A DNA stretch of 64,000 nucleotides from Agromyces cerinus subsp. cerinus (GTDB lineage Bacteria; Actinomycetota; Actinomycetes; Actinomycetales; Microbacteriaceae): assembly GCF_900142065.1 (NCBI RefSeq), contig NZ_FSRJ01000002.1, positions 62,001 to 126,000 of the forward strand. The letters are read 5' to 3'. Positions 18,202 to 44,800 of the stretch are shown piece after piece. The translations under genes and the position numbers were made by a program. How positions within the stretch are numbered: the stretch's first letter is position 1; each line of letters begins with the position of its first letter. Below the pieces are notes generated by a model. The model worked only from the letters and a program-made list of their open reading frames with translations, was not told where the DNA came from and did no database searches.

Positions 18202-19221
18202 ATGACGCTCACCCTCGGATACAAGGCCTCAGCCGAGCAGTTCGCCCCGCGCGAGCTCGTGGAGATCGCGGTCGCGGCCGAAGCCAACGGCTTCGAGTCG
18301 GTGTTCACGAGCGACCACTTCCAGCCGTGGCGGCACGATGGCGGGCACGCGCCGTTCTCCCTCACCTGGATGGCCGCCGTCGGTGAGCGCACCTCGACCA
18401 TCAAGATCGGCACGAGCGTCATGACGCCGACGTTCCGCTACAACCCGGCGGTGCTCGCCCAGGCGTTCGCGAGCCTCGGCTGCCTGTACCCGGGGCGCAT
18501 CATCGCGGGCTTCGGCACCGGCGAGGCGCTGAACGAGATCGCCACGGGCTTCCGCGGCGCGGGCGAGCAGGACTGGCCCGAGTTCCGCGAGCGCTTCGCG
18601 CGGCTCCGCGAGTCGGTGCGCCTCATGCGCGCGCTCTGGACCGACGACGAGCAGGTGAGCTTCGAGGGCGAGTACTACTCGACCCACGACGCGTCGATCT
18701 ACGACCGACCGGATGTCCCGGTGCCCGTCTACATCGCCGCCGGCGGTCCGACCGTCGCGAAGTACGCAGGGCGTGCGGGCGACGGCTTCATCTGCACCTC
18801 GGGCAAGGGCATGGAGCTCTACACCGAGCAGCTCATCCCGGCGGTCAAGGAGGGCGTCGCGGCCGGCGGCCGCTCGTACGACGCGCTCGACCGCATGATC
18901 GAGATCAAGGTCTCGTACGACACCGACGCCACGGCCGCGCTCGAGAACACGCGGTTCTGGTCGCCGCTGTCGCTCTCGGCGGAGCAGAAGCACGACATCA
19001 CCGACCCAGTCGAGATGGAGCGGGCCGCCGACGCGCTGCCGATCGAGCAGATCGCCAAGCGCTGGATCGTCGGCAGCGACCCCGACGAGGTCGTCGCCGG
19101 CATCAAGCAGTACGTCGACTGGGGCTTCAACCACCTCGTCTTCCACGCGCCCGGGCACGACCAGGCACGATTCCAGGAGCTCTTCGCGCGCGACCTGGCG
19201 CCGCGCCTGCGCGCGCTCTGA
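18202..19221 (+). CDS. fgd: F420-dependent glucose-6-phosphate dehydrogenase
   Basis: 339 residues, very close to mycobacterial FGD1 along its whole length. It oxidises glucose-6-phosphate to 6-phosphogluconolactone while reducing F420 to F420H2. '[17 protein letters not shown]' holds Asp38-His39, equivalent to the F420-site Asp39/His40 of the M. tuberculosis enzyme. '[13 protein letters not shown]' holds the catalytic Glu, and 'FICTSGKG' the phosphate-binding Lys. '[13 protein letters not shown]' also matches. It would be the main source of F420H2 for the LLM enzymes in this window. It has its own 78-bp leader after cofC. Confidence 0.95.
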
Positions 19222-25239: not shown

Positions 25240-26057
<818 letters not shown>

Positions 26058-26061
<4 letters not shown>

Positions 26062-27194
26062 GAGACCCTCCTCCGCATGAGGAGCACCGCGAACACCGGG
26101 CCGCCGATGAGGGCCGTGATGATGCCGACGGGCAGCTCCCGCGGGTCGAAGAGCGTGCGCGCGGCCGTGTCGGCCCAGACCAGGAACAGCGCGCCCGCAA
26201 GTGCCGACAGGGGCAGCAACGCGCGGTGGCGCGAGCCCACGAGCAGGCGCACACCGTGCGGGAGGATCAGGCCGACGAACCCGATGGACCCGCTGACGGC
26301 GACGAGCGCTCCGGTGAGCAGCGCGGTGCCGCCGAGCAGCAGCACCCGGCTGCGGCCGACGTGCACCCCGAGCGCGGATGCCGCGGCATCACCGAACGCG
26401 AAGGCGTCGAGCGTGCGGGCGCTCGCGATGAGCGGGATGCCGATGGCGACGAGCGCCCCGCCCGCGATCGCGACCGAGACCCAGTCGGTGCCGGCGAGCG
26501 AGCCGAGCAGCCAGTTGAGGATCTCGCGGTAGCTGTCGCCGGTGGCACTCCAGAAGATGACGAGGCTCGTGACGGCGCCGAACATCGACGAGACGGCGAG
26601 TCCGGCGAGCACCGTGCGGGTGGGAGAGAGCCCGCCGCCTGGCCCGCCGGAGCCGCGACCGGCCGCGCCCGCGAGGGCGATGGTCGCAACGAGGGCGGCG
26701 AGTGCGCCGGCGAATGCCGCGAGCGGCAGCAGCAGGCCGACGCCGAGCACGATCACGATCACCGCGCCGACGGAGGCGCCCGACGAGAGGCCGAGCAGGT
26801 ACGGGTCGGCGAGCGGGTTGCGCGTGAGCGCCTGCATGACCGCACCGCACAGCGCGAGTCCGGCGCCGACGGCGGCGGCCGTGAGCACCCGGGGCATCCG
26901 CAGCTCCCAGACGATGCCGTCGCGGAGCGGGCTGAGCGTCGATTCGCCGATGCCGAGGTGCGCCAGCACGCTCGCGACGACGTCGCTCGGAGCGAGTCCG
27001 GCCGGACCGATGGTGACGGCCGCGACGACGGATGCCACGAGCGCCGCGCCGAGCGCGACGGCCCAGAGCGCCGTGCGTGCGCGCCGCCGCTTCGCGGGTT
27101 GAGGAGCGAGCGCAGCGAGCGTCTCGAAACCTCCCCCGGGGGAGGTTTCGACAGGCTCAACCCGCAGAGGCTCCTCAACCCGCCGGAGCGTCAT
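26058..27194 (-). CDS. FecCD-family ABC permease, proposed F420-0 transporter
   Basis: 378 residues with about ten membrane helices. 'RMPRVLTAAAVGAGLALCGA' and 'NPLADPYLLGLSSGASVGAV' are the diagnostic FecCD/BtuC motifs, and 'GSIGFVGLILPHGVRLLVG' is the cytoplasmic coupling region. Residues 5 to about 33 are encoded by an 88-bp dispersed palindromic repeat, so the gene's start region looks rebuilt by repeat insertion; FecCD homology begins only after it. The ATG at 27194 overlaps the binding-protein stop as TGATG; a downstream start is possible but has no obvious ribosome site. Confidence 0.82.
27095..27182. repeat. Complete palindromic dispersed repeat within the permease gene
   Basis: The outer 12-bp inverted repeats CGGGTTGAGGAG (27095-27106) and CTCCTCAACCCG (27171-27182) enclose a perfect 24-bp palindrome at 27126-27149. 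Internal halves match copies at 35328, 36827, 38866 and 3257. The size and symmetry resemble REP/MITE-like elements. Confidence 0.8.
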
Positions 27195-28192
27195 CAGCCG
27201 AGCGTCCCGAGCTGCTCGACGAGCGACGCGACCGCGCCGACGTTGCGCACGCCCGCCTCGGTGGCCGGGAAGTCGACGACGAGGTACCGCTTCGCCTGCA
27301 CGGCGGGCAGTGCCGCCGTCGCGGCGTTCGACTCGAGGTGCGCGATCTTCTGCTCGGCGGTGTTCCACGGCGCGTCGACGAGCACGATGACGTCGGGGTT
27401 CGCGGCGACGATCGCCTCCCAGCCCATGGCGGTCCACGTGTCCTCGACATCGGCGGCGATGTTCTCGAGGCCGGCGGCCTGCATGATCATCTGCGGTGCG
27501 CCGATGCCGGCGCCGACGTACGGCGTCTCGTCGCCCGAGCTGTACCAGAGGGCCGTGAGGCCGTCGGCGTTCGGCTCGATCGCGTCGAGCTCGGCCTGCT
27601 GCTTCGCGACGAGTTCGGCCGCGGCATCCGGAACACCGAAGATGTCGCCAGCCTCCTCGAACTCGCGGAAGACCTCGTCGAAGGTGAGCGGGTTCGGCAT
27701 GTAGCCCTCGCCCTTGCACGCCGCGGGGGCGACATACGTCGCAACGCCGAGCTTCTCGAGCGTCGCGCGGTCGCCGGCGCCCTCGGACGAGAGGTTCGAC
27801 TCCCATCCGGCGAAGACGAGGTCGGGCTCCGCGGCGAGCGTCGCCTCCTGCGACGGCACCTTGTCGGAGAGCACCTCGATGCCCGACGCCGCGTCGGCGT
27901 ATGCCTCGGGCACCGGCCCGTCGCTGAACGCCGAGCCGATGACGCGGTCTTCGAGGCCGAGGGCGAGCAGCAGCTCGAGGGTCGACGACTTGATCGTGAC
28001 GACCTGCTCGGGCGCCGACTCGAACGTCACCTCGGTGCCGCAGTTGTCGATCGTGAGCGGGAATCCCGACGCCGCGGCGTCGTCGGCACCAGCGGATTCG
28101 GCCGGGCCGGCCGTACTGCCGCTCGCGCATCCGGCGAGGAGCAGGAGGGCGGCGACGGGCGCGGCGATGAAGAGGGGACGGAACATGGGCAT
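27194..28192 (-). CDS. ABC substrate-binding lipoprotein, proposed F420-0 binding protein
   Basis: 332 residues. A lipoprotein signal ends in 'LLLLAGC' (Cys22). The rest is a Peripla_BP_2 (BtuF/FhuD) fold: 'LTIDNCGTEVTFESAPEQVV', 'LSDKVPSQEATLAAEPDLV' and 'VDFPATEAGVRNVGAVASLV'. Two extra cysteines occur at 'IDNCGTE' and 'APAACKGEG'. It closely matches my memory of the family named putative F420-0 ABC transporter periplasmic protein (TIGR03868), and position next to cofD supports this. B12 or siderophore binding is the main alternative. Confidence 0.75.
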   Translation of the reverse strand: MPMFRPLFIAAPVAALLLLAGCASGSTAGPAESAGADDAAASGFPLTIDNCGTEVTFESAPEQVVTIKSSTLELLLALGLEDRVIGSAFSDGPVPEAYADAASGIEVLSDKVPSQEATLAAEPDLVFAGWESNLSSEGAGDRATLEKLGVATYVAPAACKGEGYMPNPLTFDEVFREFEEAGDIFGVPDAAAELVAKQQAELDAIEPNADGLTALWYSSGDETPYVGAGIGAPQMIMQAAGLENIAADVEDTWTAMGWEAIVAANPDVIVLVDAPWNTAEQKIAHLESNAATAALPAVQAKRYLVVDFPATEAGVRNVGAVASLVEQLGTLG

Positions 28193-28301: not shown

Positions 28302-29297
28302 CTAGACCGCGAGGTCGAGCGCCGCACCGGCGAGATCGGCCGAGGTGTCGAGGTCGCGCATCCAGAGGGGCACGGATGCCGCGGTGAGCCCGATCGCTGC
28401 GAGCGGCGCAAGCGCCGCGGCATCCGCTTCATCGACGAGCCAGCCGTCGAGCAGGCCGCCCGCCGACCGTGCGCCGTAGTGCCGGCCGACCCCCTCGGCG
28501 CTCGTCTCGACGCCGATGACGGGCAGGCAGGCGTCGGCCATGCCGCGCACGACCTTGCCGCCGATGATCGGCGAGACGCCGACGACGGGCGCCGAGGTCT
28601 CGGCGAGCGCCTCGCGGATGCCGGCCACCGAGAGGATCGTGCCGATCGAGACGACCGGGTTCGAGGGCGCGATGAGCACGACGTCGGCTCCGGCGATCGC
28701 CTCGACGACGCCGGGCGCCGGGCGTGCCGCCTCGATGTTCCGCTGTCGGAACGCGATCGCGGGCAGGGTGGCGCGGTAGCGCGTCCACCACTCCTGGAAG
28801 TGCATCTCGCGCTCGCCGTCGAGCTTGTCGGGGTCGGCGACGAGCACGTCGGTGTCGACCTCGGTGTCGGTCGCGGGAATCAGGTGCACGCCGAGCGGCC
28901 AGCGCTGCTGAAGGCGGTGCGTCACCTCCGACGGCGTCGCACCCTCGCGGAGCCAGGCCGTGCGCGCGAGGTGGGTGCCGAGGTCGAGGTCGCCGAGGGT
29001 GAACCACGGCCAGCCGACGCCCCACTCGCGGAGCTCGGCGGCGACGCGCTCGGTCTCGCCCGCCCGGCCCCAGCCGCGCTCGGTGTCGTTGACGCCCGCG
29101 AGCGAGTAGAGCAGCGAGTCGAAGTCGGGCATGAGGCGCACGCCCGCGAGCCAGATGTCGTCGCCGGTGTTGACGATCACGGTGACGGATGCCTCGGTGC
29201 CCCCGTTGCCGTCTGGCCAGCGCCGCGCGCACTCCTCGCGCACGCCGCGCACGAAGCGCGAGCCTCCGACTCCGCCCGCGAGCACCGTGATCTGCAC
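28302..29297 (-). CDS. cofD: 2-phospho-L-lactate transferase (F420-0 synthase)
   Basis: 331 residues of the CofD/FbiA family. It joins the activated phospholactate (or PEP) unit to Fo to make (dehydro)F420-0. 'ITVLAGGVGGSRFVRGV' at the N-terminus and 'IVNTGDDIWLAGVRLMPDFD' are the family hallmarks, and 'LIAPSNPVVSIGTILSVAGI' and 'SPIIGGKVVRGMADACL' follow. The start is GTG at 29297. It heads the minus-strand group that continues into the ABC importer cassette. A terminator separates it from the DUF4406 gene upstream. Confidence 0.92.
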   Translation of the reverse strand: MQITVLAGGVGGSRFVRGVREECARRWPDGNGGTEASVTVIVNTGDDIWLAGVRLMPDFDSLLYSLAGVNDTERGWGRAGETERVAAELREWGVGWPWFTLGDLDLGTHLARTAWLREGATPSEVTHRLQQRWPLGVHLIPATDTEVDTDVLVADPDKLDGEREMHFQEWWTRYRATLPAIAFRQRNIEAARPAPGVVEAIAGADVVLIAPSNPVVSIGTILSVAGIREALAETSAPVVGVSPIIGGKVVRGMADACLPVIGVETSAEGVGRHYGARSAGGLLDGWLVDEADAAALAPLAAIGLTAASVPLWMRDLDTSADLAGAALDLAV

Positions 29298-32796: not shown

Positions 32797-34209
32797 TCAG
32801 TACCCGCCGGCCACGACGTGCTGAGCGGCGGTGGCGAGCGCATCGGCGACCTCGTCGACGCCATCGCGCACCATGCCGACGGTGACCCGCACGTAGTCGC
32901 CGCCGGATCGGGAGCGGCCGTTGCCCGAGCCGTTCCCGCCGGCCGTCGACGCGGCGAGGAACGGTGTGCCCGCCGCGACGCGCACCCCGGCTGCCGCGAG
33001 CTGCACGAGCGCCGAGCGTTCGCTGAGCACCGGCATCCACAGGTTGACGCCGTCGGCCGGGGCGACCGGCACGCCGCGAGCTCGGAGTGCATCGCCGAGT
33101 GCGCGCTGCCGGGTGAAGTACTGCCGCCGCGCCTCGGCGACGGCGTCGAGCGACGTGCCGTCGGTGAGCAGGTCGAGCAGGATCGTCTGCAGCATCCGCG
33201 AGGTCCAGCCGGGGCCGAGCATGCGCCGCGCGGCGATGCGGTCGACGAGGTCGCGCGGCCCGCCGACGGCGGCGATGCGCAGGTCGGGGCCGTGCGACTT
33301 CGAGAAGCTGCGCACGTGCACGACCTGCTCGGGCAGCCACGTGCCGAGCGTCACGTCGCCCGCGGTCGAGATCATGCCCGAGTGGTCGTCTTCGATCACG
33401 ACCACATCGCCCGCGCGTTCGGCCGATCGGATGACGCGCGCCAGCGCCTCGGCGCGGCCGACCGTCATCGACGCCCCGGTGGGATTCTGCGCCCGCGGCT
33501 GCAGCAGCACCGCGACGGGCTGCTGGTGCAGCGCGCGGGCGAGCCCGTCGGGCGTCATGCCGGCTTCGTCGACGGCGACGGGCACCGCCTCGGCGCCGAG
33601 CAGGTCGAGCAGGTCGAGGAACGGCGGGAAGCCGGGGCTCTCGACGACGACCCGGTCGCCGTACCGCACGACCTCGTCGAGCGCGCGCGAGATCGCGTCG
33701 AGGGCGCCGTCGACGACCATGATCGTCTCGGTCTCCGACGGCCAGGAGTCGGCGAGCACCGCCGCGAGCCCCGGGATCACGGGCTCCGCCTGGTAGCTGC
33801 CGGTCTCGGCGCGCGCCGAGACCCGCGAGAGCGCCGGGCCGAGCGCCGGCAGCAGCAGCGGGTCGGGCGTGCCTCGCGAGAGGTCGAGGCGCACGGGATC
33901 GTTCGGGGCGGCCATGCCGCGCATGCGAGGCGCGAGCCAGCCCTGCGAGAGGGGACGCACGAAGCTGCCGGCCCGCCCGCGCGACTCGATGAGTCCGGTT
34001 CGCGAGAGCGCCTGCCAGGCCTGGCTCACGGTGGCGGGGCTGACGCCGAGCTCGCCGGCGAGTTCGCGCACGGTCGGCAGCCGGGTGCCGGCGGCGAGCT
34101 CGCCCGAGTTCACGAGCCGCGCGATCACCCCGGCGATGCCGCGCGGGGTCGTCTCGCCGAACTCCGCGAGCGCGATGAGCTCCGCGCCCTCCAGTCGAAC
34201 CGCAGTCAT
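32797..34209 (-). CDS. MocR-type PLP-dependent GntR family regulator
   Basis: 470 residues. The N-terminal GntR winged helix (about 12-80) has 'LPTVRELAGELGVSPATVSQ' then 'AWQALSRTGLIESRGRAGSF'. The rest is an aminotransferase class I fold with 'QPRAQNPTG' and the PLP-binding Lys in 'RSFSKSHGPDLRIAAVGG'. Such regulators sense an amine or amino-acid-like ligand through PLP. It diverges from the pyrimidine locus, so beta-alanine or beta-aminoisobutyrate is a plausible ligand, by inference. ATG at 34209 matches the family start; another ATG at 34245 is possible. Confidence 0.85.
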   Translation of the reverse strand: MTAVRLEGAELIALAEFGETTPRGIAGVIARLVNSGELAAGTRLPTVRELAGELGVSPATVSQAWQALSRTGLIESRGRAGSFVRPLSQGWLAPRMRGMAAPNDPVRLDLSRGTPDPLLLPALGPALSRVSARAETGSYQAEPVIPGLAAVLADSWPSETETIMVVDGALDAISRALDEVVRYGDRVVVESPGFPPFLDLLDLLGAEAVPVAVDEAGMTPDGLARALHQQPVAVLLQPRAQNPTGASMTVGRAEALARVIRSAERAGDVVVIEDDHSGMISTAGDVTLGTWLPEQVVHVRSFSKSHGPDLRIAAVGGPRDLVDRIAARRMLGPGWTSRMLQTILLDLLTDGTSLDAVAEARRQYFTRQRALGDALRARGVPVAPADGVNLWMPVLSERSALVQLAAAGVRVAAGTPFLAASTAGGNGSGNGRSRSGGDYVRVTVGMVRDGVDEVADALATAAQHVVAGGY

Positions 34210-34472
34210 CCGAGATCCATTCACATGAATACCTGACACGACCATTGCCTCCTCACGACGTGAGGGACAAGATAAGTAACCACAACGTCACAGTGTGAAA
34301 CACAAGAGAAATGTTCACGCCGAACAATAACAGAACGGGTCGCGCACCCGTTCGGAAGCTCCGGACTTGCAGTCCGCAGCACAGCCTCGGCGTCACAGCA
34401 CCACCCGGTGAGCACCTCTGTTCCACGCCCATCGAGTGCACGGCAACGACGCCGACCGACTCAGGAGGCAAC
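34210..34472. promoter_or_regulatory. Divergent control region of the pyrimidine locus
   Basis: 263 bp, unusually AT-rich between about 34255 and 34335. It holds three inverted repeats: ATTCA-CA-TGAAT (34219-34230), CCTCACG-A-CGTGAGG (34251-34265, perfect) and TCACA-G-TGTGA (34288-34298, perfect). These are candidate binding sites for the divergent MocR regulator. AGGAGG before 34473 is the ribosome-binding site of the first catabolic gene. I see no ORF. Confidence 0.6.
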
Positions 34473-35321
34473 ATGACGATCGTCCGAGCGGCCATCACGC
34501 AGACGACCTGGACCGGCGACAAGGAGTCCATGCTCGACAAGCACGAGCAGTTCGCCCGTGATGCGAAGGCGCAGGGCGCCCAGGTCATCTGCTTCCAGGA
34601 GCTCTTCTACGGCCCGTACTTCGGCATCACCGAAGACGTGAAGTACTACGACTACGCCGAGCCGGCCGACGGCCCGATCGTGCAGCGCTTCGCCGCGCTC
34701 GCGAAGGAGCTCGGCATGGTCATGGTGCTGCCGATCTACGAGGAGGAGCAGCCGGGCGTCTACTACAACACCGCGGTTGTCGTCGACGCCGACGGCACGA
34801 TCCTCGGCTCGTACCGCAAGCACCACATCCCGAACCTCGACAAGTTCTGGGAGAAGTTCTACTTCCGCCCCGGCAACCTCGGCTACCCCGTGTTCAACAC
34901 CGCCGTCGGGCCCATCGGCGTCTACATCTGCTACGACCGGCACTTCCCCGAGGGGTGGCGCGAGCTGGGCCTGAACGGTGCGCAGATCGTCTTCAACCCG
35001 AACGCGACGAAGCCCGGCCTCTCGAACCGCCTCTGGGAGATCGAGCAGCCGGCCGCGGCCGCCGCGAACGGCTACTTCGTGGCAGCGGCCAACCGCGTCG
35101 GCCTCGAGGACAACGAGTACGGCGACCTGGCGGTGAACTTCTACGGCAAGAGCCAGTTCTGCGACCCTCAGGGCAACATCGTCGGCGGGTACGGCTCGGA
35201 GACCGACGAGGAGGTCGTCGTGCGCGACCTCGACATGGACATGATCCGGGGCGTCCGCAACGCCTGGCAGTTCTACCGCGACCGCCGGCCCGACTCCTAC
35301 ACCTCCATCCCCAAGCCGTAG
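34473..35321 (+). CDS. Beta-ureidopropionase-like nitrilase-family amidohydrolase
   Basis: 282 residues of the carbon-nitrogen hydrolase superfamily. The catalytic triad is visible: Glu43 in 'ICFQELFYGPYF', Lys116 in 'GSYRKHHIPN' and Cys153 in 'VYICYDRHFPEGW'. It resembles bacterial N-carbamoyl-beta-alanine amidohydrolases, which release beta-alanine, CO2 and ammonia from ureidopropionate, the last ring-opening step of reductive pyrimidine breakdown. The ATG at 34473 follows AGGAGG. It is the first gene of the catabolic run, and dihydropyrimidinase follows after 61 bp. Confidence 0.85.
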   Translation: MTIVRAAITQTTWTGDKESMLDKHEQFARDAKAQGAQVICFQELFYGPYFGITEDVKYYDYAEPADGPIVQRFAALAKELGMVMVLPIYEEEQPGVYYNTAVVVDADGTILGSYRKHHIPNLDKFWEKFYFRPGNLGYPVFNTAVGPIGVYICYDRHFPEGWRELGLNGAQIVFNPNATKPGLSNRLWEIEQPAAAAANGYFVAAANRVGLEDNEYGDLAVNFYGKSQFCDPQGNIVGGYGSETDEEVVVRDLDMDMIRGVRNAWQFYRDRRPDSYTSIPKP

Positions 35322-35327
35322 GTCACC

Positions 35328-35367
35328 GGTTTCGAGACGGCGCCGGAGCGCCTCCTCGACCCGCAGA
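35328..35367. repeat. Dispersed repeat copy upstream of dihydropyrimidinase
   Basis: GGTTTCGAGACG is followed by a variable middle and CTCCTCGACCCGCAG. It shares its ends with the 27095 element and the 36827 copy, and sits just before the ribosome-binding site. Confidence 0.7.
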
Positions 35368-35382
35368 GACGAAGGAGTACCA

Positions 35383-36819
35383 ATGGCCACCACCCTCATC
35401 ACCGGCGGCACCGTCGTGAGCGCCACGGGCCGCGCCGTTGCCGACGTGCTCGTCGACGGCGAGACCATCCGCGCCCTGCTCGAGCCGGGCTCGAGCCTCC
35501 TGGGTACGGATGTCGCGGCATCCGTCGACCGCGTGATCGACGCGACCGGCCGGTACGTCATCCCCGGCGGCATCGACGCCCACACCCACATGCAGCTGCC
35601 GTTCGGCGGCACCGAGGCATCCGACACCTTCGAGACCGGAACCCGCGCGGCCGCGTGGGGCGGCACGACCTCGATCATCGACTTCGCCGTGCAGACCTAC
35701 GGGCAGCGCATCGAAGACGGGCTCGCGGCGTGGCACGAGAAGGCGGCCGGCAACTGCGCGATCGACTACGGCTTCCACCAGATCGTGGGCGACGTGAACG
35801 AGGCGTCGCTCGCGACCCTCCGCCGCCTGCCCGACGAGGGCATCACGAGCTTCAAGATGTTCATGGCCTATCCGGGCGTCTTCTACTCCGACGACGCGCA
35901 GATCCTGAAGGCCATGCAGGTCTCGCGCGACACGGGCATGCTCACGATGATGCACGCCGAGAACGGCCCGGCGATCGACGTGCTCGCGGCCCAGCTCGTG
36001 GAGCAGGGCAGGACCGAGCCGTTCTATCACGGTGTCGCCCGCGCCTGGGAGATGGAGGAGGAGGCCACCCACCGCGCGATCATGCTCGCCAAGCTCACGG
36101 GCGCCCCGCTCTACATCGTGCACGTGTCGGCGAAGCAGGCGGTCGAGCAGCTCGCCTGGGCGCGCGACAAGGGCCAGAACGTCTACGGCGAGACCTGCCC
36201 GCAGTACCTCTACCTGAGTCTCGAAGACCAGCTCGGCGCGAAGGGCGAGCAGTGGGGCTCGTTCGAGGGAGCGAAGTGGGTCTGCTCGACGCCGCTCCGC
36301 TCCCGCGAGGAGGGCCACCAGGACTCGATGTGGCAGGCGCTGCGCACGAACGACCTGCAGATGGTCTCGACCGACCACTGCCCGTTCTGCATGAAGGACC
36401 AGAAGGAGCTCGGCCTCGGCGACTTCCGCAAGATCCCGAACGGCATCGGCTCGATCGAGCACCGCATGGACCTCATGTACCAGGGCGTCGTCACCGGCGA
36501 GATCACGCTCGAGCGGTGGGTCGAGCTCACGAGCACGACGCCCGCCCGCATGTTCGGCCTGTACGGCACGAAGGGCGTGATCCAGCCGGGCGCCGACGCC
36601 GACATCGTCGTCTACGACCCGAACGGGCACACCTCGATCGGGCTCGACAAGACCCACCACATGAACATGGACTACTCCGCATGGGAGGGGTACGAGATCG
36701 ACGGCCACGTCGACACCGTGCTCTCGCGGGGCAAGGTCATCGTCGACGGCGACCAGTACCTCGGCGCCAAGGGCGACGGCCGGTTCCTCAGGCGCGGCCT
36801 GAGCCAGTACCTCATCTAG
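35383..36819 (+). CDS. hydA: Dihydropyrimidinase (hydantoinase family)
   Basis: 478 residues of the cyclic amidohydrolase family. All metal ligands are present: His67 and His69 in 'GIDAHTHMQLPFGG', the lysine to be carboxylated at Lys158 in 'TSFKMFMAYPG', His191 in 'MMHAENG', His247 in 'IVHVSAKQ' and Asp331 in 'VSTDHCPFC'. It would hydrolyse dihydrouracil or dihydrothymine to N-carbamoyl-beta-amino acids (and often hydantoins). GAAGGAG precedes the ATG. Its product is the substrate of the upstream nitrilase, so the two steps are encoded together. Confidence 0.92.
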   Translation: MATTLITGGTVVSATGRAVADVLVDGETIRALLEPGSSLLGTDVAASVDRVIDATGRYVIPGGIDAHTHMQLPFGGTEASDTFETGTRAAAWGGTTSIIDFAVQTYGQRIEDGLAAWHEKAAGNCAIDYGFHQIVGDVNEASLATLRRLPDEGITSFKMFMAYPGVFYSDDAQILKAMQVSRDTGMLTMMHAENGPAIDVLAAQLVEQGRTEPFYHGVARAWEMEEEATHRAIMLAKLTGAPLYIVHVSAKQAVEQLAWARDKGQNVYGETCPQYLYLSLEDQLGAKGEQWGSFEGAKWVCSTPLRSREEGHQDSMWQALRTNDLQMVSTDHCPFCMKDQKELGLGDFRKIPNGIGSIEHRMDLMYQGVVTGEITLERWVELTSTTPARMFGLYGTKGVIQPGADADIVVYDPNGHTSIGLDKTHHMNMDYSAWEGYEIDGHVDTVLSRGKVIVDGDQYLGAKGDGRFLRRGLSQYLI

Positions 36820-36826
36820 CCACCCG

Positions 36827-36865
36827 GTTGCGAGACGGCCGCGAGTGGCCTCCTCGACCCGCAGA
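36827..36865. repeat. Dispersed repeat copy upstream of the LLM gene
   Basis: GGTTGCGAGACG, a variable middle, then CCTCCTCGACCCGCAG. It is the same family and in the same position (just before a ribosome-binding site) as the copy at 35328. Confidence 0.7.
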
Positions 36866-36880
36866 CGAAAGGGAGCACGG

Positions 36881-37897
36881 ATGGACTTCGGAGCGGTCCT
36901 GCAGACCAACCCCCCGGCATCGCGCACCATCCAGCTCGCGAAGCTCGCCGAGAACCACGGGTTCACGCACGTGTGGACCTTCGACTCGCACCTGCTCTGG
37001 CAGGAGCCGTACGTCATCTACAGCCAGATCCTCGCCGAGACCCGCAAGGTCAAGGTCGGGCCGTTCGTCACCAACCCGGCGACGCGCGACTGGACGGTGA
37101 CCGCGTCGATCTTCGCGACTCTGAACGAGATGTACGGCAACCGCACGATCTGCGGCATCGGCCGCGGCGACTCCGCGGTGCGCGTCACCAACGGCAAGCC
37201 CACGACGATCGCCGAGCTCCGCGAGGCGATCCACGTGATCCGAGAGCTCGCGAACTCCCGGCCGGTCGAGTACCACGGCTCGCAGCTCCAGTTCCCGTGG
37301 AGCCACGGCTCGGAGCTCGACATCTGGGTGGCCGCGTACGGTCCGATGGCGCTGAAGCTGACGGGGGAGGTGGGCGACGGATTCATCCTGCAGCTCGCCG
37401 ACGTCGACATCGCCGCCTGGATGATCCAGCACGTGCGCGACGCGGCCGAGGCCGCGGGGCGAGACCCGATGTCGATCAAGTTCTGCGTCGCCGCGCCCAT
37501 GTACATCGGCGACGACTGGGAGCACATGCGCGAGCAGTGCCGCTGGTTCGGCGGAATGGTCGGCAACCACATCGCCGACATCGTCGCGAAGTACGGCGCG
37601 CACGGCGCGGTGCCCGACGCGCTCACCGACTACATCAAGGCCCGCGAGGGCTACGACTACAACGAGCACGGCCGCGCGGGCAACGTGCACACGAGCTTCG
37701 TGCCCGACGAGATCGTCGACCGGTTCTGCGTGCTCGGCACGGCCGAGCAGCACATCGAGAAGCTCGAGCAGCTGAAGGCGCTCGGCGTCGACCAGTTCGC
37801 CGGCTACCTCCAGCACGACAACAAAGAGGAGACGTTGCGGGTCTACGGCGAGACCGTGATCCCGGCGCTCTCCGAGCACCTCACGGCGAAGGCATGA
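36881..37897 (+). CDS. LLM class flavin/F420-dependent oxidoreductase (TIGR03842-like)
   Basis: 338 residues with the luciferase-like barrel: 'FTHVWTFDSHLLWQEPYVIY', 'VKVGPFVTNPATRDWTVTAS', 'GIGRGDSAVRVTNGKPTTI' and 'WVAAYGPMALKLTGEVGDGF'. It looks like the TIGR03842 family, which is annotated as F420-dependent but also found in species without F420 (so FMN use is possible) and recurs beside dihydropyrimidinases. In this operon it is the only redox enzyme that could act on the pyrimidine ring. Its stop overlaps the downstream permease by ATGA. Confidence 0.8.
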   Translation: MDFGAVLQTNPPASRTIQLAKLAENHGFTHVWTFDSHLLWQEPYVIYSQILAETRKVKVGPFVTNPATRDWTVTASIFATLNEMYGNRTICGIGRGDSAVRVTNGKPTTIAELREAIHVIRELANSRPVEYHGSQLQFPWSHGSELDIWVAAYGPMALKLTGEVGDGFILQLADVDIAAWMIQHVRDAAEAAGRDPMSIKFCVAAPMYIGDDWEHMREQCRWFGGMVGNHIADIVAKYGAHGAVPDALTDYIKAREGYDYNEHGRAGNVHTSFVPDEIVDRFCVLGTAEQHIEKLEQLKALGVDQFAGYLQHDNKEETLRVYGETVIPALSEHLTAKA

Positions 37898-38853
37898 TCA
37901 AGGCCGGCGTGCGCGAGACGACGGCGACGGATGCCGCGGCGCCGGCGCCGGGCCGCCGCGCGCCGCGTCGCCCGGGGCGGGCGGGCCGCGAGCTCGGCCG
38001 CTGGGCCTGGGGTCTCGCCGGCATCCTCGTCATCGCGCTCATCTGGGAGAGCTACAAGCTGCTCGGCCCCGCCGACGGCGTGGTGCTCGGCGAGCTGCGA
38101 GTCCTGCCGCGCACGACCGATCTCGCCATGCCTCACATCTGGGACATGGGCACCCGTCTCGCCGAACCCGTCACCCGTGCCGACGACGCGCTGCCGCTCT
38201 GGAGCGTCGTCGCGCTGGCTGCGCTCACAACGCTCGGCATCGCCGCGGCCGGATGGCTTGTGGGCGTCGTCGTGGGCATCGGTCTCGCACTCGTGATGCA
38301 GCGCTGGCGCCTCGCCGAGTGGGGCCTCCTGCCGTGGATCGTGATCAGCCAGACCGTGCCGCTCATCGCGTTCGCGCCGGTCGTGAAGAGCTGGGGGTCC
38401 CGCGTCGAGATCGGCTCGTTCGAGTGGCAGGACTGGATGTCGGTCGCGCTCATCGCGAGCTACCTCGCGTTCTTCCCGATCGCGATCGGCGCGCTCAAGG
38501 GACTGCAGTCGCCCGACCGCATCCACGAGGAGCTCATGCAGACCTACGCGGCGGGATACTGGTCGACACTCGTGAAGCTGCGCTTCCCGGCATCCGTGCC
38601 CTATCTGCTGCCGGCGCTCCGGCTCGGCGCGGCGAACGCCGTGATCGGTGCGGTCGTCGCCGAGGTCTCGACGGGCCTGCAGGGCGGCATCGGTCGCATC
38701 CTCATCCAGTTCGCCGGGCAGGCCTCCGGCGACCCGGCGAAGGCGTGGGCGCCGATCTTCGGCGCGATCGTGCTGGGGCTCGTGGCCGCCGGCTCGATCG
38801 CCCTGCTCGGCGTGATCCTCAAGAACTACCGACGAACGGAGGAGGCCGCATGA
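37894..38853 (+). CDS. ABC transporter permease 1 (SsuC/TauC family)
   Basis: 319 residues, with about six membrane helices after a basic Arg/Pro-rich N-terminus. 'ELMQTYAAGYWSTLVKLRFP' then 'ASVPYLLPALRLGAANAVIG' is the EAA-type loop that contacts the ATPase. It is one of two different permeases in the cluster, presumably forming a heterodimer with the protein at 39725. Likely substrates are pyrimidines or related ureides, judged only from context. Start and stop overlap the neighbours by ATGA. Confidence 0.82.
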   Translation: MIKAGVRETTATDAAAPAPGRRAPRRPGRAGRELGRWAWGLAGILVIALIWESYKLLGPADGVVLGELRVLPRTTDLAMPHIWDMGTRLAEPVTRADDALPLWSVVALAALTTLGIAAAGWLVGVVVGIGLALVMQRWRLAEWGLLPWIVISQTVPLIAFAPVVKSWGSRVEIGSFEWQDWMSVALIASYLAFFPIAIGALKGLQSPDRIHEELMQTYAAGYWSTLVKLRFPASVPYLLPALRLGAANAVIGAVVAEVSTGLQGGIGRILIQFAGQASGDPAKAWAPIFGAIVLGLVAAGSIALLGVILKNYRRTEEAA

Positions 38854-39725
38854 GCGAGCCCCAGGGGTTTCGACCGGCTCAACCCGCAGCAGTGCCGACG
38901 CCCGCGGCCGCGACCGCCGTCGAGGTGCGCGGCGTCGACAAGCGGTTCGAGACCCGAAGCGGTCAGGTGCAGGCGCTGGACGCCATCGATCTCACGGTCG
39001 CCGCGGGCGAGTTCGTCTCGCTGATCGGTCCGAGCGGATGCGGCAAGTCCACGCTCATGCGCCTCATCGCCGACCTCGACGACCCCTCGAGCGGAACGCT
39101 CACGGTCTTCGGCAAGTCCACGCGCCAGGCGCGCCTCGACCAGGAGTACGGCATCGCGTTCCAGTCGGCCGGGCTCCTGCCATGGCGCACGGTCGCCGCG
39201 AACGTGGCACTGCCGCTCGAGCTGCACGGAGTGGCATCCGGGGCCCGCGCGAACCGCGTCGCCGAGCTGCTCGACATGGTCGGGCTGGCCGACTTCGCCG
39301 ACCGCTACCCCGACCAGCTCTCGGGCGGCATGCAGCAGCGCGTGGCGATCGCCCGCTCGCTCGCCGAGCAGCCGCGGCTGCTGCTCATGGACGAGCCGTT
39401 CGGCGCCCTCGACGAGATGACGCGCGAGAAGATGCAGTCCGACCTCGTGCGCATCTCGGCCGAGACCGGCGCCGCCGTCGTGTTCGTGACCCACTCGATC
39501 CCCGAGGCCGTGTTCCTCTCCGATCGCGTCGTCGTGATGTCGCCGCGGCCCGGGCGCATCCGGGAGATCGTGCCGATGCGCCTCGGCGCCGATGCGAAGC
39601 GCGCGGCCCGCACCGATGAGCTCCGCGAGGAGCGCGCGTTCTTCGACATGGTCACCGCCGTGCGCGAGGCGCTGCACGGCGGCGCACCCGTCGGCACCGG
39701 ACCGCGCGGAGTGGAGACGCGCTGA
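38850..39725 (+). CDS. ABC transporter ATP-binding protein (SsuB/TauB family)
   Basis: 291 residues. Walker A is 'LIGPSGCGKSTLMRLIADL', the signature is 'QLSGGMQQRVAIARSLAEQ', and Walker B is 'LLLMDEPFGALDEMTREK'. 'FQSAGLLPWRTVAANV' is the Q-loop of the nitrate/sulfonate/pyrimidine importer class. The first about 13 residues include 'GFRPAQPAAV', encoded by a dispersed-repeat half (38866-38889). It powers the importer with the two flanking permeases. The stop overlaps the next start as TGATG. Confidence 0.85.
   Translation: MSEPQGFRPAQPAAVPTPAAATAVEVRGVDKRFETRSGQVQALDAIDLTVAAGEFVSLIGPSGCGKSTLMRLIADLDDPSSGTLTVFGKSTRQARLDQEYGIAFQSAGLLPWRTVAANVALPLELHGVASGARANRVAELLDMVGLADFADRYPDQLSGGMQQRVAIARSLAEQPRLLLMDEPFGALDEMTREKMQSDLVRISAETGAAVVFVTHSIPEAVFLSDRVVVMSPRPGRIREIVPMRLGADAKRAARTDELREERAFFDMVTAVREALHGGAPVGTGPRGVETR
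38866..38889. repeat. Dispersed repeat half-element in the ATPase N-terminus
   Basis: This 24-bp stretch matches 27144-27167 at 23 of 24 positions (GGTTTCGACMGGCTCAACCC core). It is translated in frame near the start of the ATPase. Confidence 0.75.
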
Positions 39726-40561
39726 TGAGTGCGCCCGCCGCAACGACCCGTACGGCCCGTACGACCCGGCCGGCGCGCATGGGTCCGCGCACCGAGACGA
39801 CGCTGCGCATCATCGCGCCCATCGCGGTGGGGCTCATCGTGCTCGGCACGTGGCAGTTCCTCGTCAGCGTGGTGGGCGTCTCCGACTACCTGCTGCCGAG
39901 TCCGGCCTCGATCATCGAGGAGTTCGTCGCCTACTGGCCTTCGATCGCGCAGGCGATGCTCATCACGGGCACCAACGCGCTGGTCGGCCTCGTCGTCGGC
40001 TCGATCCTCGGCATCCTGCTGGCCGCCGTCGCGGCGCGGTGGCGCCCGATCGACCAGATGAGCGCACCGGTCGTGGCCTCGCTCGCGGTCATCCCGATCG
40101 TCGCCCTCGCCCCCGTGCTCAACTCGATGTTCGGCGCCGACAGCCAGTTCGGCCGTCAGGCGATCGCCGCGATCGCGTCGTTCGTGCCCGTCTTCATCAA
40201 CACGCTGCGGGGGTTCCGGCAGACGACGCCCGTGCACCGCGACCTGATGAAGGCCTACGCGGCGAGCTCCGGCCAGGTGCTGCGAACGCTCACCCTGCCG
40301 ACCGCGCGACCCTTCATCCTCACCGGCATCCGCATCGCCTCGTCGCTGGCCGTGATCTCCGCCCTCGTCGCCGAGTACTTCGGCGGCCCGCGGGGCGGCC
40401 TCGGCGGGCTCATCTCCACCTCTGCCGCATCGAGCGCCTACGCCCGCGCCTGGGCGTATGTGCTGGCATCCATCGCCCTCGGGCTCCTCTTCTATCTGGC
40501 GACGCTCGCGCTCGAGCGACTGTTGCAGCGTCACACACCCCAGGCGCGACGACGCCCCTGA
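39725..40561 (+). CDS. ABC transporter permease 2 (SsuC/TauC family)
   Basis: 278 residues, with six membrane helices after a Thr/Arg-rich N-terminus. 'DLMKAYAASSGQVLRTLTLP' then 'TARPFILTGIRIASSLAVIS' is the EAA-type loop. It is a second, distinct permease of the same transporter; sequence differs clearly from permease 1, suggesting an asymmetric channel. 'YLLPSPASIIEEFVAYWPSI' is typical of this family. The gene starts within the ATPase stop (TGATG). Confidence 0.82.
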   Translation: MSAPAATTRTARTTRPARMGPRTETTLRIIAPIAVGLIVLGTWQFLVSVVGVSDYLLPSPASIIEEFVAYWPSIAQAMLITGTNALVGLVVGSILGILLAAVAARWRPIDQMSAPVVASLAVIPIVALAPVLNSMFGADSQFGRQAIAAIASFVPVFINTLRGFRQTTPVHRDLMKAYAASSGQVLRTLTLPTARPFILTGIRIASSLAVISALVAEYFGGPRGGLGGLISTSAASSAYARAWAYVLASIALGLLFYLATLALERLLQRHTPQARRRP

Positions 40562-40642
40562 CACCGACCCCCGCGGCCTCGCGCCCGGCGGAACCAGCAC
40601 CACCGCACCACCGCACGCACCGAGAACCACGAAAGGACTGAC

Positions 40643-41797
40643 ATGAACCACAGCAGACGTCGCTTCGCGACGATCGGCGGGCTCGCCCTCGCGGCGGCGC
40701 TCGCACTCACCGCATGTTCTGGATCCGGCGGCGGGACCGGGGAGACCGACGGAGGCGGCGACGGCGACCTCACCCCCGTGAAGCTCCAGCTCCAGTGGCT
40801 GCCGCAGGGCCAGTTCGCCGGCTACTTCGCGGCCGTCGACCAGGGCTTCTTCGAGGAGGAGGGCCTGGACGTCGAGATCATCCCCTCGGGCGGCGACATC
40901 GTTCCGCAGGACGCGCTCGCGAACGGCGACGTCGACTACGCGATCGCGTGGGTGCCCAAGGTGCTCGGCTCGATCGAGCAGGGAGCCAATCTCACCGACA
41001 TCGCCCAGATCTTCCAGAGGTCGGGAACGCTGCAGGTCTCGATGGCCGATTCCGGCATCGACTCCGTCGCCGACTTCGAGGGCAAGAAGATCGGCTCGTG
41101 GGGCTTCGGCAACGAGTGGGAGATCTTCGCGGCCATGGCCGCCGAGGGACTCGACGCCACGACCGTGCAGATCATCACGCAGGACTTCAACATGAACGCC
41201 TTCCTGCAGGGCGACATCGACGCGGCCCAGGCGATGACCTACAACGAGTACGCGCAGCTGCTCGAGACGGTGAACCCCGACACGGGCGAGCTCTACCAGC
41301 CCGAGGACTTCAACGTGATCAGCTACGAGGACACCGAGGGCGCCATGCTCCAGGACGCCATCTGGGCGGACACGGCACGGCTCGCCGACGACACCGACTA
41401 CCAGGACACGACGGTCAAGTTCCTGAAGGCCGTCATCAAGGGCTGGGTCTACGCCGCCGAGAACCCCCAGGAGGCGTCGGACATCACGATCGCCGCGGGC
41501 TCCGGCTGGGGCCCGAGCCACGAGCTCTGGATGGTGAACGAGACGAACAAGCTCATCTGGCCGTCACCCGACGGCATCGGCATCATCGACCAGGCCGCAT
41601 GGGACAAGACCGTCGCCGGTGCCCTCGCGGCCGTGAACGAGTCGGGGGCGCACCTCATCACCGAGGAGCCGCCGTCGACCGCGTACACGAACGACTGGAT
41701 CCAGAAGGCGCTCGACGAGCTCGAGGGCGAGGGACTCGACCTCACGGGCGAGGGCTTCGAACCCATCGACGTCACCCTCGAGGAGGGCGGCAACTGA
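40643..41797 (+). CDS. ABC substrate-binding lipoprotein, NMT1/THI5-like
   Basis: 384 residues. A lipoprotein signal with a twin-Arg-like 'SRRRF' ends in 'ALTAC' (Cys25), then a Gly/Asp linker. The NMT1/THI5-like domain starts at 'VKLQLQWLPQGQFAGYFAAV' and 'DQGFFEEEGLDVEIIPSGGD', a hallmark of binding proteins for thiamine-precursor pyrimidines, riboflavin-like or pyrimidine ligands. It probably captures the pyrimidine or cyclic ureide that the operon degrades. It has its own 80-bp leader and is followed by a two-level hairpin. Confidence 0.85.
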   Translation: MNHSRRRFATIGGLALAAALALTACSGSGGGTGETDGGGDGDLTPVKLQLQWLPQGQFAGYFAAVDQGFFEEEGLDVEIIPSGGDIVPQDALANGDVDYAIAWVPKVLGSIEQGANLTDIAQIFQRSGTLQVSMADSGIDSVADFEGKKIGSWGFGNEWEIFAAMAAEGLDATTVQIITQDFNMNAFLQGDIDAAQAMTYNEYAQLLETVNPDTGELYQPEDFNVISYEDTEGAMLQDAIWADTARLADDTDYQDTTVKFLKAVIKGWVYAAENPQEASDITIAAGSGWGPSHELWMVNETNKLIWPSPDGIGIIDQAAWDKTVAGALAAVNESGAHLITEEPPSTAYTNDWIQKALDELEGEGLDLTGEGFEPIDVTLEEGGN

Positions 41798-41802
41798 TCG
41801 GT

Positions 41803-41848
41803 CGGATGCCGCGTGGGCCGGCGCAACCGGCCGGCCGCGCGGCATCCG
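41803..41848 (+). terminator. Two-level hairpin after the binding-protein gene
   Basis: CGGATGCCGCG (41803-41813) pairs with CGCGGCATCCG (41838-41848), and GGCCGG pairs with CCGGCC inside around a 5-base loop. It lies between the binding-protein and aminotransferase genes and could be a partial terminator or protect the 3' end of the upstream mRNA. Confidence 0.65.
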
Positions 41849-41899
41849 CCACCGCACCATCTGCGACCCGTGTCGCACGCGAAGGAAAGGCACCGTGCC

Positions 41900-43228
41900 A
41901 TGACCGACAACCTCACCGAGGGCCTCGACGAGCTCGCTCGCGAACTCGACCGAGACCACGTCTTCCACTCCTGGTCCGCGCAGGCGAACCCGTCGGGTCT
42001 CGTGATCGCGAGCGGTCGCGGCAGTCGGGTGTGGGACCACGCCGGCCGCGAATACCTCGACTTCTCGAGCCAGCTCGTGAACGTCAACATCGGCCACCAG
42101 CACCCGTCGGTCGTGCAGGCGATCAGGGAGCAGGCCGAACTCCTCACCACGGTCGCCCCGTCGACGGTGAACCTCGCGCGAGGCGAGGCCGCCAAGCGCA
42201 TCGTCGCGCGCGCGCCGTCCGGATTCCGCAAGGTCTTCTTCACCAACGGCGGCGCCGATGCCAATGAGAACGCGATCCGCATGGCGCGCCTGCACACCGG
42301 CAGGGACAAGGTGCTCTCGACCTACCGGTCGTACCACGGCAACACGGGTGCGGCGATCGTCTCGACCGGCGACTGGCGTCGCATCCCCAACGAGTTCGCG
42401 CGTGGGCACGTGCACTTCTTCGGCCCGTACCTCTACCGCTCGGAGTTCTGGGCGACGACGCCCGAGCAGGAGTCCGAGCGGGCGCTGCAGCACCTGCGCC
42501 GCGTGATCGAAGCCGAAGGACCGTCGTCGATCGCGGCGATCCTGCTCGAGACGATCCCCGGCACCGCCGGCATCCTCGTGCCGCCGCCCGGGTACCTCTC
42601 CGGCGTGCGGGAGCTCTGCGATCGGCACGGCATCCTGCTGATCCTCGACGAGGTCATGGCGGGGTTCGGCCGCACCGGCCGCTGGTTCGCCTTCGACGGC
42701 TACGACGTGCGGCCCGACCTCATCACCTTCGCCAAGGGCGTGAACTCGGGGTACGTGCCGGTCGGCGGCGTGATCATCTCGGATCCCATCGCCGCGACGT
42801 TCGACGACCGGGTGTTCCCCGGCGGGCTCACCTATTCGGGGCATCCGCTCGCGATGGCCTCGATCGTCGCGGCGCTCGACGCGATGGAGTCGGAGGGCAT
42901 CGTCGACCACGCTCGCGAGATCGGCTCCACGATCATCGGACCGGCGCTCGCCGAGCTCGCCGAACGCCATGCCGCCATCGGCGAGGTGCGCGGCGAGGGC
43001 GTCTTCTGGGCGATCGAGCTCGTCGCCGATCCTGCGACCCGCGAGCCGCTGCCTGCGGCCGCGATCGGCCGCCTCAAGTCCGCGCTCGTCGAGCGCGGGC
43101 TCCTGCCGTTCGTGCAGGACAACCGCATCCACGTCGTGCCGCCGTGCGTCGTCACGGCCGACGAGGTCGCCGACGCGATGGTGATCTACGACGACGTACT
43201 CCGCACCGCACTCGAAGGAGAGGGCTGA
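41900..43228 (+). CDS. Class III aminotransferase, probable beta-alanine/omega-amino acid transaminase
   Basis: 442 residues. The PLP-binding Lys279 is in 'LITFAKGVNSGYVPVGGV', and 'LLILDEVMAGFGRTGRWFAF' holds the conserved Asp and the Arg region. 'VFFTNGGADANENAIRMARL' is the cofactor phosphate loop. It would convert beta-alanine or beta-aminoisobutyrate to malonate or methylmalonate semialdehyde, the step after the nitrilase. The next gene encodes a dehydrogenase for that product. The exact substrate is inferred from context. Confidence 0.85.
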   Translation: MTDNLTEGLDELARELDRDHVFHSWSAQANPSGLVIASGRGSRVWDHAGREYLDFSSQLVNVNIGHQHPSVVQAIREQAELLTTVAPSTVNLARGEAAKRIVARAPSGFRKVFFTNGGADANENAIRMARLHTGRDKVLSTYRSYHGNTGAAIVSTGDWRRIPNEFARGHVHFFGPYLYRSEFWATTPEQESERALQHLRRVIEAEGPSSIAAILLETIPGTAGILVPPPGYLSGVRELCDRHGILLILDEVMAGFGRTGRWFAFDGYDVRPDLITFAKGVNSGYVPVGGVIISDPIAATFDDRVFPGGLTYSGHPLAMASIVAALDAMESEGIVDHAREIGSTIIGPALAELAERHAAIGEVRGEGVFWAIELVADPATREPLPAAAIGRLKSALVERGLLPFVQDNRIHVVPPCVVTADEVADAMVIYDDVLRTALEGEG

Positions 43229-43231
43229 CCC

Positions 43232-44800
43232 ATGAGCCAGACAGACCAGAACGATCGGAGCGCCGCGCAGGCCGCGTCGCTCGCCGAGACCCAGCCGCTC
43301 GACGGCGGACTCGCGAGCATCGAGCACTGGATCGACGGGGCATCCGTCGCCGGCGACGGAGCCCGCAGCGGGCCCGTCTACAACCCGGCGCGCGGCGTCG
43401 AGCAGAAGCGCGTGCGCTTCGCCTCGACCGAGGACGTCGACGTCGCCGTGCAGGCGGCCGCACGCGCGTTCCCGGGGTGGCGCGACACCTCGATCGCCAA
43501 GCGCCAGCAGGTGATGTTCGCGTTCCGCGAGCTGCTCAACGCCCGCAGCGGCGAGCTCGCCGCGATCCTCACGAGCGAGCACGGCAAGGTGCTCTCCGAC
43601 GCCGCCGGCGAGATCGCCCGCGGCCTCGAGGTCGTCGAGCTCGCCTGCGCGATGCCGGGCTACACGAAGGGCGAGTACTCCGAGAACGTGTCGACCGGCA
43701 TCGACGTGTATTCGACGAAGCAGCCCGTGGGTGTCGTCGGCATCATCAGCCCGTTCAACTTCCCGGCGATGGTGCCGCTGTGGTTCTTCCCGCTCGCGAT
43801 CGCGACGGGCAACACGGTCGTGCTGAAGCCCTCCGAGAAGGACCCGTCTGCCGCCATCTGGCTCGCCCGCCTCATGCAGGAGGCGGGCCTGCCCGACGGC
43901 GTGCTGAACGTCGTGCACGGCGACAAGGTCGCCGTCGACGCGCTGCTCGAGCACCCCGTCGTGCGCTCGATCTCGTTCGTCGGCTCGACGCCGATCGCGA
44001 AGTACATCTACGCGACCGCGACTGCGAACGGCAAGCGGGTGCAGGCGCTCGGCGGCGCCAAGAACCACATGCTCGTGCTGCCCGACGCCGACCTCGACCT
44101 CGCGGCCGACGCCGCCGTCAACGCCGGCTTCGGCTCGGCGGGGGAGCGCTGCATGGCCGTCTCGGTCGTGCTCGCGGTCGACTCGGTCGCCGATGAGCTG
44201 GTCGCCAAGATCAGCGAGCGGATGTCGCGGCTCACCACGGGCGACGGCACCCGCGGCTGCGACATGGGGCCGCTCATCACCCGCGAGCACCGCGACAAGG
44301 TCGTCGGCTACCTCGACGTGGCGGCATCCGACGGGGCGACCGTCGTCGTCGACGGGCGCGACACTCCGATCGACGGGGACGACGACGGGTTCTGGCTCGG
44401 CCCGACCCTCGTCGACAAGGTGCCGCTCGATTCATCCGTCTACCGCGACGAGATCTTCGGCCCGGTACTCGGCATCGTTCGCGTCGACGGGTACCAGGAG
44501 GGGCTCGACGTGATCAACGCCTCGCGCTACGGCAACGGCACGGCGATCTTCACGAACGACGGCGGGGCCGCGCGGCGGTTCCAGCGCGAGGTGACGGTCG
44601 GCATGATCGGCATCAACGTGCCGATCCCGGTGCCGGTCGCGTACCACTCGTTCGGCGGCTGGAAAGATTCGCTCTTCGGCGACGCCAAGGCCTACGGCGC
44701 GCGCGGCTTCGACTTCTTCACGCAGGAGAAGGCGGTCACGTCGCGCTGGCTCGACCCGAGCCACGGCGGCCTGAACCTGGGGTTCCCGCAGCACGACTAG
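43232..44800 (+). CDS. mmsA: CoA-acylating methylmalonate/malonate-semialdehyde dehydrogenase
   Basis: 522 residues. The aldehyde dehydrogenase motifs are clear: 'GIISPFNFPAMVPLWFFPLA' for NAD binding and catalytic Cys307 in 'GSAGERCMAVSVV'. 'FGGWKDSLFGDAKAYGARGF' near the C-terminus is typical of the MMSDH group, which uses CoA as acyl acceptor and yields acetyl-CoA or propionyl-CoA with CO2. It ends the catabolic route from uracil or thymine. It begins 3 bp after the aminotransferase stop. Confidence 0.9.
   Translation: MSQTDQNDRSAAQAASLAETQPLDGGLASIEHWIDGASVAGDGARSGPVYNPARGVEQKRVRFASTEDVDVAVQAAARAFPGWRDTSIAKRQQVMFAFRELLNARSGELAAILTSEHGKVLSDAAGEIARGLEVVELACAMPGYTKGEYSENVSTGIDVYSTKQPVGVVGIISPFNFPAMVPLWFFPLAIATGNTVVLKPSEKDPSAAIWLARLMQEAGLPDGVLNVVHGDKVAVDALLEHPVVRSISFVGSTPIAKYIYATATANGKRVQALGGAKNHMLVLPDADLDLAADAAVNAGFGSAGERCMAVSVVLAVDSVADELVAKISERMSRLTTGDGTRGCDMGPLITREHRDKVVGYLDVAASDGATVVVDGRDTPIDGDDDGFWLGPTLVDKVPLDSSVYRDEIFGPVLGIVRVDGYQEGLDVINASRYGNGTAIFTNDGGAARRFQREVTVGMIGINVPIPVPVAYHSFGGWKDSLFGDAKAYGARGFDFFTQEKAVTSRWLDPSHGGLNLGFPQHD

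Follow-up and report, generated by a model that had tools for sequence, protein, structure and literature searches.

The usual first enzyme of reductive pyrimidine breakdown is PreA/PreT (PydA). Another uracil enzyme, RutA, is an oxygenase of the luciferase-like (LLM) superfamily; it opens the ring with oxygen, and dihydropyrimidinase (DHPase) is not needed. An operon in the actinomycete Agromyces cerinus subsp. cerinus appears to differ from both. It lies at positions 34473-44800, on the + strand, of a stretch of 64,000 nucleotides (contig NZ_FSRJ01000002.1, positions 62,001 to 126,000), called the window here. Sequence comparisons and a modelled structure make it likely that this operon encodes reductive pyrimidine breakdown and that the first step is carried out by an F420H2-dependent LLM oxidoreductase of the family TIGR03842, rather than by PreA/PreT.

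Several papers describe enzymes that bear on this reading. A ferredoxin-dependent variant of PydA is known, which is still a PydA (PMC7332683). In the formation of mureidomycins, a putative F420/FMN oxidoreductase, SSGG-03002 (NpsU), is required in vivo for reduction of the C5-C6 bond of uracil; its in vitro assay gave no product (PMC10714638). In uric acid clusters of Chloroflexota, a putative F420 LLM is predicted to take over from YgfK (PMC12507026). In Haloferax volcanii, the luciferase family protein HVO_A0295A is up on alanine as nitrogen source, together with genes for DHPase, ureidopropionase, methylmalonate-semialdehyde dehydrogenase (MMSDH) and an aminotransferase (PMC6801745); Haloferax gave no TIGR03842 match above the cut-off. 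A 2021 review of F420 states that, beyond the Actinobacteria, the F420H2-dependent reductases of bacteria that make F420 had all gone unstudied, names the reason for F420 in Proteobacteria and Chloroflexi as an unanswered question, and gives F420 in Paracoccus denitrificans only at trace level (PMC8498797). Searches of open-licence PMC papers, which cover neither preprints nor the majority of subscription journals, turned up no description of an F420-dependent dihydropyrimidine dehydrogenase.

The operon consists of nine genes, in the order given by the original prediction, which was made from the DNA alone. A regulator gene diverges from it.

34473..35321, +, CN-hydrolase (nitrilase), likely a beta-ureidopropionase (PF00795, 219 bits; PDB relatives; start picked by an upstream AGGAGG)
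35383..36819, +, dihydropyrimidinase / D-hydantoinase, DHPase (TIGR02033, 542 bits, cut-off 393; PDB relatives)
36881..37897, +, TIGR03842 LLM oxidoreductase, proposed F420H2-dependent dihydropyrimidine dehydrogenase (596 bits, cut-off 295.45; model and fold)
37894..38853, +, ABC importer permease (PF00528; start overlaps the LLM stop, ATGA)
38850..39725, +, ABC importer ATPase (PF00005; start from sequence)
39725..40561, +, second ABC importer permease (PF00528)
40643..41797, +, NMT1/THI5-like binding protein (PF09084; PDB 4nmy, 3ix1, THI5)
41813..43228, +, class III aminotransferase, start uncertain (NF004718, 747 bits, cut-off 472; best PDB match a taurine aminotransferase)
43232..44800, +, MMSDH, CoA-acylating (TIGR01722, 681 bits, cut-off 448.5)
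32797..34245, -, MocR-type regulator, divergent (GntR and aminotransferase domains)

The DHPase, LLM, aminotransferase and MMSDH are assigned by scores above NCBIfam curated cut-offs, and the nitrilase and importer genes by Pfam and PDB matches. Profile, Pfam and PDB matches place the pathway genes, the importer and the MocR regulator where the original prediction had put them. It had also called the LLM translationally coupled to the importer. This fits the sequence, since the LLM stop codon overlaps the start of the first permease in the ATGA at 37894-37897. The nearest solved structures of the DHPase are D-hydantoinase/dihydropyrimidinase enzymes. The nitrilase matches an N-carbamoylputrescine amidohydrolase best and beta-ureidopropionases next, and the PDB matches of the importer binding protein include a methylpyrimidine-binding protein (3ix1) beside the binding protein 4nmy and THI5. 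Taken together, the predicted gene set fits a route from dihydropyrimidine to acetyl- or propionyl-CoA. Near-identical elements (CGAGACGG...CTCCTCGACC) occur at window positions 35333 and 36831, in both spacers that flank the DHPase gene; a search of the rest of the window, and of 34 kb from other loci of the same genome, found no further copy.

The usual first enzyme is missing from this set, and PreA was also sought in the genome, which is 4.19 Mb long and marked 100% complete. A search for the DHO_dh domain (PF01180) returned a single gene, the quinone-dependent PyrD, so no PreA was found in the genome. The PreA model NF006183 gave zero matches there and detects the controls E. coli and Deinobacterium chartae. 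The locus-based claim that no PreA/PreT is present therefore extends to the genome for PreA, the one of the two that was sought there. The TIGR03842 model picked up 12 LLM genes in the host genome. RutA was not listed for any of them, the RutA model itself not having been run genome-wide; 11 fit TIGR03842 or another family, and one (L005) has no family at 1e-20. The window has a second LLM gene at about 16450-17437, near the Fgd gene listed below; it belongs to family TIGR03557 (274 bits, above the cut-off of 210).

The protein at 36881-37897 exceeds the curated cut-off of TIGR03842 (F420_CPS_4043) twofold, and the NCBIfam entry describes this family merely as a hypothetical F420 oxidoreductase. 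On two Mer models it scores 140 and 135 bits, below their cut-offs of 276 and 348.7, and so it is not assigned to Mer. In a profile search of the PDB, 11 of the 12 matches at 1e-8 are F420 enzymes (9hav being counted as one by its title, which calls it F420-dependent), with Mer at the top and a luciferase last. A structure model built on an alignment of 57 family members has a mean pLDDT of 90.3 and a pTM of 0.90. When it is compared with solved structures using Foldseek, Mer takes rank 1, F420 enzymes fill ranks 1-15 and a luciferase follows at rank 16; two of the top three ranks are Mer entries with F420 bound. The modelled fold is closest to that of F420-dependent Mer.

Evidence for the pathway role of the LLM comes from the genes that accompany it in other genomes. 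Two sets were searched, 198 genomes of the same order and 396 of the phylum Actinomycetota, with a limited number of candidates scored per genome (4 for PreA across the phylum). In the order, the LLM was found above cut-off in 50/198 genomes, DHPase in 54/198 and PreA in 0/198. All 50 LLM genomes have DHPase; the two genes are at most 300 bp apart in 46 and on the same strand in 49. Across the phylum, the LLM occurs in 84/396 genomes and PreA in 3/396, and no genome has both. The E. coli and D. chartae controls have DHPase-type matches and PreA and no LLM above cut-off.

A further set comprised 80 LLM genomes outside the order, from Proteobacteria, Chloroflexi, a haloarchaeon and other Actinomycetota: 50 were taken from 50 of 80 contig loci, and the other 30 from the 78 LLM genomes of the phylum that lie outside the order. 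DHPase was detected in 79 of the 80 at 1e-100 and in 78 above cut-off. In the sole genome that lacks a match (G239), DHPase sits at the end of the LLM contig. Among the 30 Actinomycetota the LLM and DHPase genes are at most 15 kb apart in 28, at most 3 kb in 20 and at most 300 bp in 9. The contig loci are the best 80 matches of a search of genome contigs with a Paracoccus-first query, and are therefore not an even sample. In them, the pathway partners near the LLM are DHPase (37 loci), aminotransferase (26) and MMSDH (20), and neither PreA nor PreT was seen at 1e-12.

The four order genomes with DHPase above cut-off and no LLM were considered as counterexamples and set aside. In G014 the contig terminates inside the DHPase gene, G048 is also uninformative, and in G143 and G157 the DHPase operon is divergent, at 38% identity. 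In G157 the divergent DHPase (L036:5402-8715) is followed by a Mer-like LLM, with a TIGR03842 score of 82 bits, and by genes for an IclR-type regulator and an importer; this is perhaps an F420 route for another ring. Two haloarchaeal plasmid LLMs (L159:8968-10002 and L160:8965-10002) are about 40% like the G157 protein. Their neighbours are genes for threonine-synthase-like proteins, Zn-hydrolases and amidohydrolases, and L160 has npdG and molybdopterin genes as well. The two loci resemble an F420 version of the reductive breakdown of purines. G101 carries a second TIGR03842 gene (L038:7889-8932, 569 bits) on another contig, and none of the pathway genes of the window operon was found in the stretch retrieved around it. 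Two and three tandem TIGR03842-like stretches lie beside npdG and cof genes in alphaproteobacterial metagenome-assembled genomes (L103:10001-11904 and L107:3733-6700, respectively).

The proposed cofactor has genes of its own in the window.

28302..29297, -, CofD, 2-phospho-L-lactate transferase (TIGR01819, 322 bits, cut-off 257)
27194..28192, -, putative F420-0 importer binding protein (TIGR03868, 482 bits, cut-off 392)
26058..27197, -, putative F420-0 importer permease (TIGR03869, 493 bits, cut-off 437; approximate start inside a longer open frame, of which this is the C-terminal part)
25240..26061, -, putative F420-0 importer ATPase (TIGR03873, 369 bits, slightly below the cut-off of 372)
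18202..19221, +, Fgd, F420-dependent glucose-6-phosphate dehydrogenase (TIGR03554, 618 bits, cut-off 420)

Fgd, which had been named as the source of F420H2, does lie near the operon, about 15 kb before it. CofD and the importer cassette (25240-28192) are nearer still and had been overlooked. CofH was not found in the host genome by a search that matched, below cut-off, 4/14 genomes. CofD without CofH, beside the importer, suggests that the importer takes up Fo rather than F420-0. The host probably makes its F420 from an imported deazaflavin precursor, by means of the importer and CofD, and it may be other microbes that supply the species with this deazaflavin.

In other genomes, too, F420 genes accompany the LLM. 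In the order, CofD is above cut-off in 85/198 genomes, which divide into 44 of the 50 with the LLM and 41 of the 148 without it. The importer permease reaches at least 380 bits in 26 of the 50 LLM genomes, a line that was set after viewing a gap between 383 and 324 bits. Either CofD or the importer is found in 49 of the 50, compared with 56 of the 148 others (Fisher p 1.5e-15, kinship ignored); in 23 LLM genomes it lies no more than 30 kb from the LLM. The six LLM genomes of the order that lack CofD were rejected as evidence against F420: five have the importer permease (two above the curated cut-off; G091, G117 and G161 below it, at 406-419 bits), and the sixth is incomplete. Among the best 80 loci, 54 have cof genes or npdG near the LLM, 45 have npdG directly upstream, 34 have cofG, cofH, cofD, cofE and npdG all together, and 8 have the importer permease. 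All six Devosia loci combine the LLM with Fgd, the importer and cofE. The gene run cofG-cofH-cofD-cofC-cofE-npdG-LLM is annotated on plasmids of Paracoccus alcaliphilus and Leisingera aquaemixtae. A Paracoccus denitrificans relative of the LLM lies at L045:10001-10999.

From these genes a cofactor, substrate, reaction and importer cargo can be inferred. Pyrimidines would be imported through the NMT1-type importer. In the LLM, F420H2 would donate a hydride to uracil or thymine at the C5=C6 bond, giving dihydrouracil or dihydrothymine. DHPase and then ureidopropionase would yield beta-alanine or beta-aminoisobutyrate, which the aminotransferase and MMSDH would convert to acetyl- or propionyl-CoA. 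Fgd would reduce F420 again in the host, and in many Proteobacteria NpdG would do so with NADPH.

Several observations weigh against this reading or limit its reach. Sequence does not settle which substrates the nitrilase, DHPase and aminotransferase use. A weaker DHPase-family match, below cut-off, occurs in six further order genomes, which have no LLM. In 11 of the best 80 loci, the retrieved DNA contains no DHPase of at least 37% identity and no F420 gene; three of these (L114, L115, L123) do contain other genes of the pathway. If only curated cut-offs are applied, the count of order LLM genomes with CofD or the importer drops from 49 to 46 of 50, and in one genome, G185 (76% complete), neither is detected. 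Whole operons move as units and relatives are not independent, so the p-values overstate the co-occurrence. PreA is above cut-off in 7 of the 50 genomes behind contig loci: three Leisingera, Aquamicrobium, Devosia psychrophila, Limimaricola and a Geminicoccaceae metagenome-assembled genome. PreA is absent from the remaining 43, of which five have a weaker match below cut-off and one, the culturable strain Paracoccus denitrificans DSM 413, has no match.

The original prediction had suggested that the LLM may replace PreA. This fits the host and the LLM genomes of the order, where no PreA was found, and does not hold everywhere, since the seven genomes retain both. Two DHPases are present in six of the seven and in eight of the 43 without PreA (Fisher p 0.0011), and in four of the seven PreA lies 2.4-2.8 kb from one of the DHPases. 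That genomes with both reductases often have two DHPases argues against a strict exchange in all genomes, and favours a similar kind of step for the two enzymes.

The retention of PreA also fits a different substrate for the LLM. It could be an F420H2-dependent reductase of another nitrogen heterocycle that feeds DHPase, such as a hydantoin precursor or an unusual pyrimidine. Hydantoins are also opened by enzymes of the DHPase family, the nearest solved relatives of the window DHPase are D-hydantoinases, and F420 LLMs are predicted for yanthine in Chloroflexota (PMC12507026). This explanation is nevertheless rather unlikely, because the downstream aminotransferase and MMSDH suit beta-amino acids from dihydropyrimidines, the importer binding protein resembles methylpyrimidine-binding proteins and the other 43 genomes have no PreA. 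A role at a later step, for instance on a semialdehyde, or as an accessory enzyme, is conceivable given that F420 LLMs include alcohol dehydrogenases (Adf, 1rhc). It is very improbable: the MMSDH of the operon already covers the semialdehyde step, DHPase is a steadier partner of the LLM than MMSDH or the aminotransferase in the best 80 loci, and the first step would be left without an enzyme.

The original prediction had also allowed for reduction with FMNH2 or oxygenation of the ring. RutA belongs to the same superfamily, whose FMN oxygenases all share the fold, so a RutA-type oxygenase was considered as the principal explanation. It was rejected, and its probability is lower still than that of a later step, because DHPase would be superfluous in an oxygenase route and yet accompanies the LLM in 79/80 and 50/50 genomes, because F420 genes track the LLM, and because F420 enzymes outrank luciferases by both profile and fold. 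FMN as the donor would likewise leave the F420 genes unexplained, and neither option finds support. The reading with the faintest chance is that the first step does not involve the LLM, dihydropyrimidines being taken up as such or uracil being reduced by another enzyme that was not found. No genome-wide search used the models of RutA or of other uracil routes, which leaves some room for it; a tie between LLM and DHPase across phyla is hard to explain for a bystander. The remaining option of the original prediction, an F420H2-dependent reductase, is well supported by the missing PreA, the nearly constant company of DHPase, the F420 genes and the Mer-like modelled fold.

To judge from these gene associations, many bacteria that lack the usual first enzyme carry an unrelated LLM beside the pathway, and this LLM probably performs the first step with F420. 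On balance it is also probable, with less confidence than for the operon itself, that TIGR03842 arose apart from PreA/PydA as an F420H2-dependent dihydropyrimidine dehydrogenase, and that pyrimidine breakdown is a main reason why F420 is kept, or its precursor imported, in many Alpha- and Gammaproteobacteria, Chloroflexi and Actinomycetes. A family listed as hypothetical would thereby gain a likely function, and pyrimidine breakdown in Actinomycetota would gain an enzyme for its first step. The association of LLM, DHPase and cof genes offers one direct, testable answer to why Proteobacteria and Chloroflexi make F420. If true, it would partly explain why the cofactor is made or imported by many bacteria of soil and sea.

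The proposed enzyme resembles known systems in different respects. With RutA it shares the superfamily and, as proposed, action on uracil; RutA differs in opening the ring with oxygen and in having no need of DHPase. SSGG-03002 (NpsU) is alike in the reaction described for it, and is biosynthetic, being part of uridyl peptide antibiotic clusters. The LLM of Chloroflexota is a predicted parallel in which an F420 LLM is swapped for a PreA-like enzyme in the reduction of a nitrogen heterocycle; it belongs to a purine pathway, has other partners and is likened here by its description. Among solved structures, Mer (8qpm, 8qpl, 1z69; TM about 0.8) comes nearest in both profile and fold, and differs in having only 25-27% identity at Foldseek ranks 1-7, in the scores below cut-off on its models and in the gene partners of the LLM. 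With PreA/PreT (PydA), the LLM would share the reaction, uracil to dihydrouracil, and the position ahead of DHPase; it differs in belonging to the LLM superfamily, in having no DHO_dh domain and in its proposed donor, F420H2.

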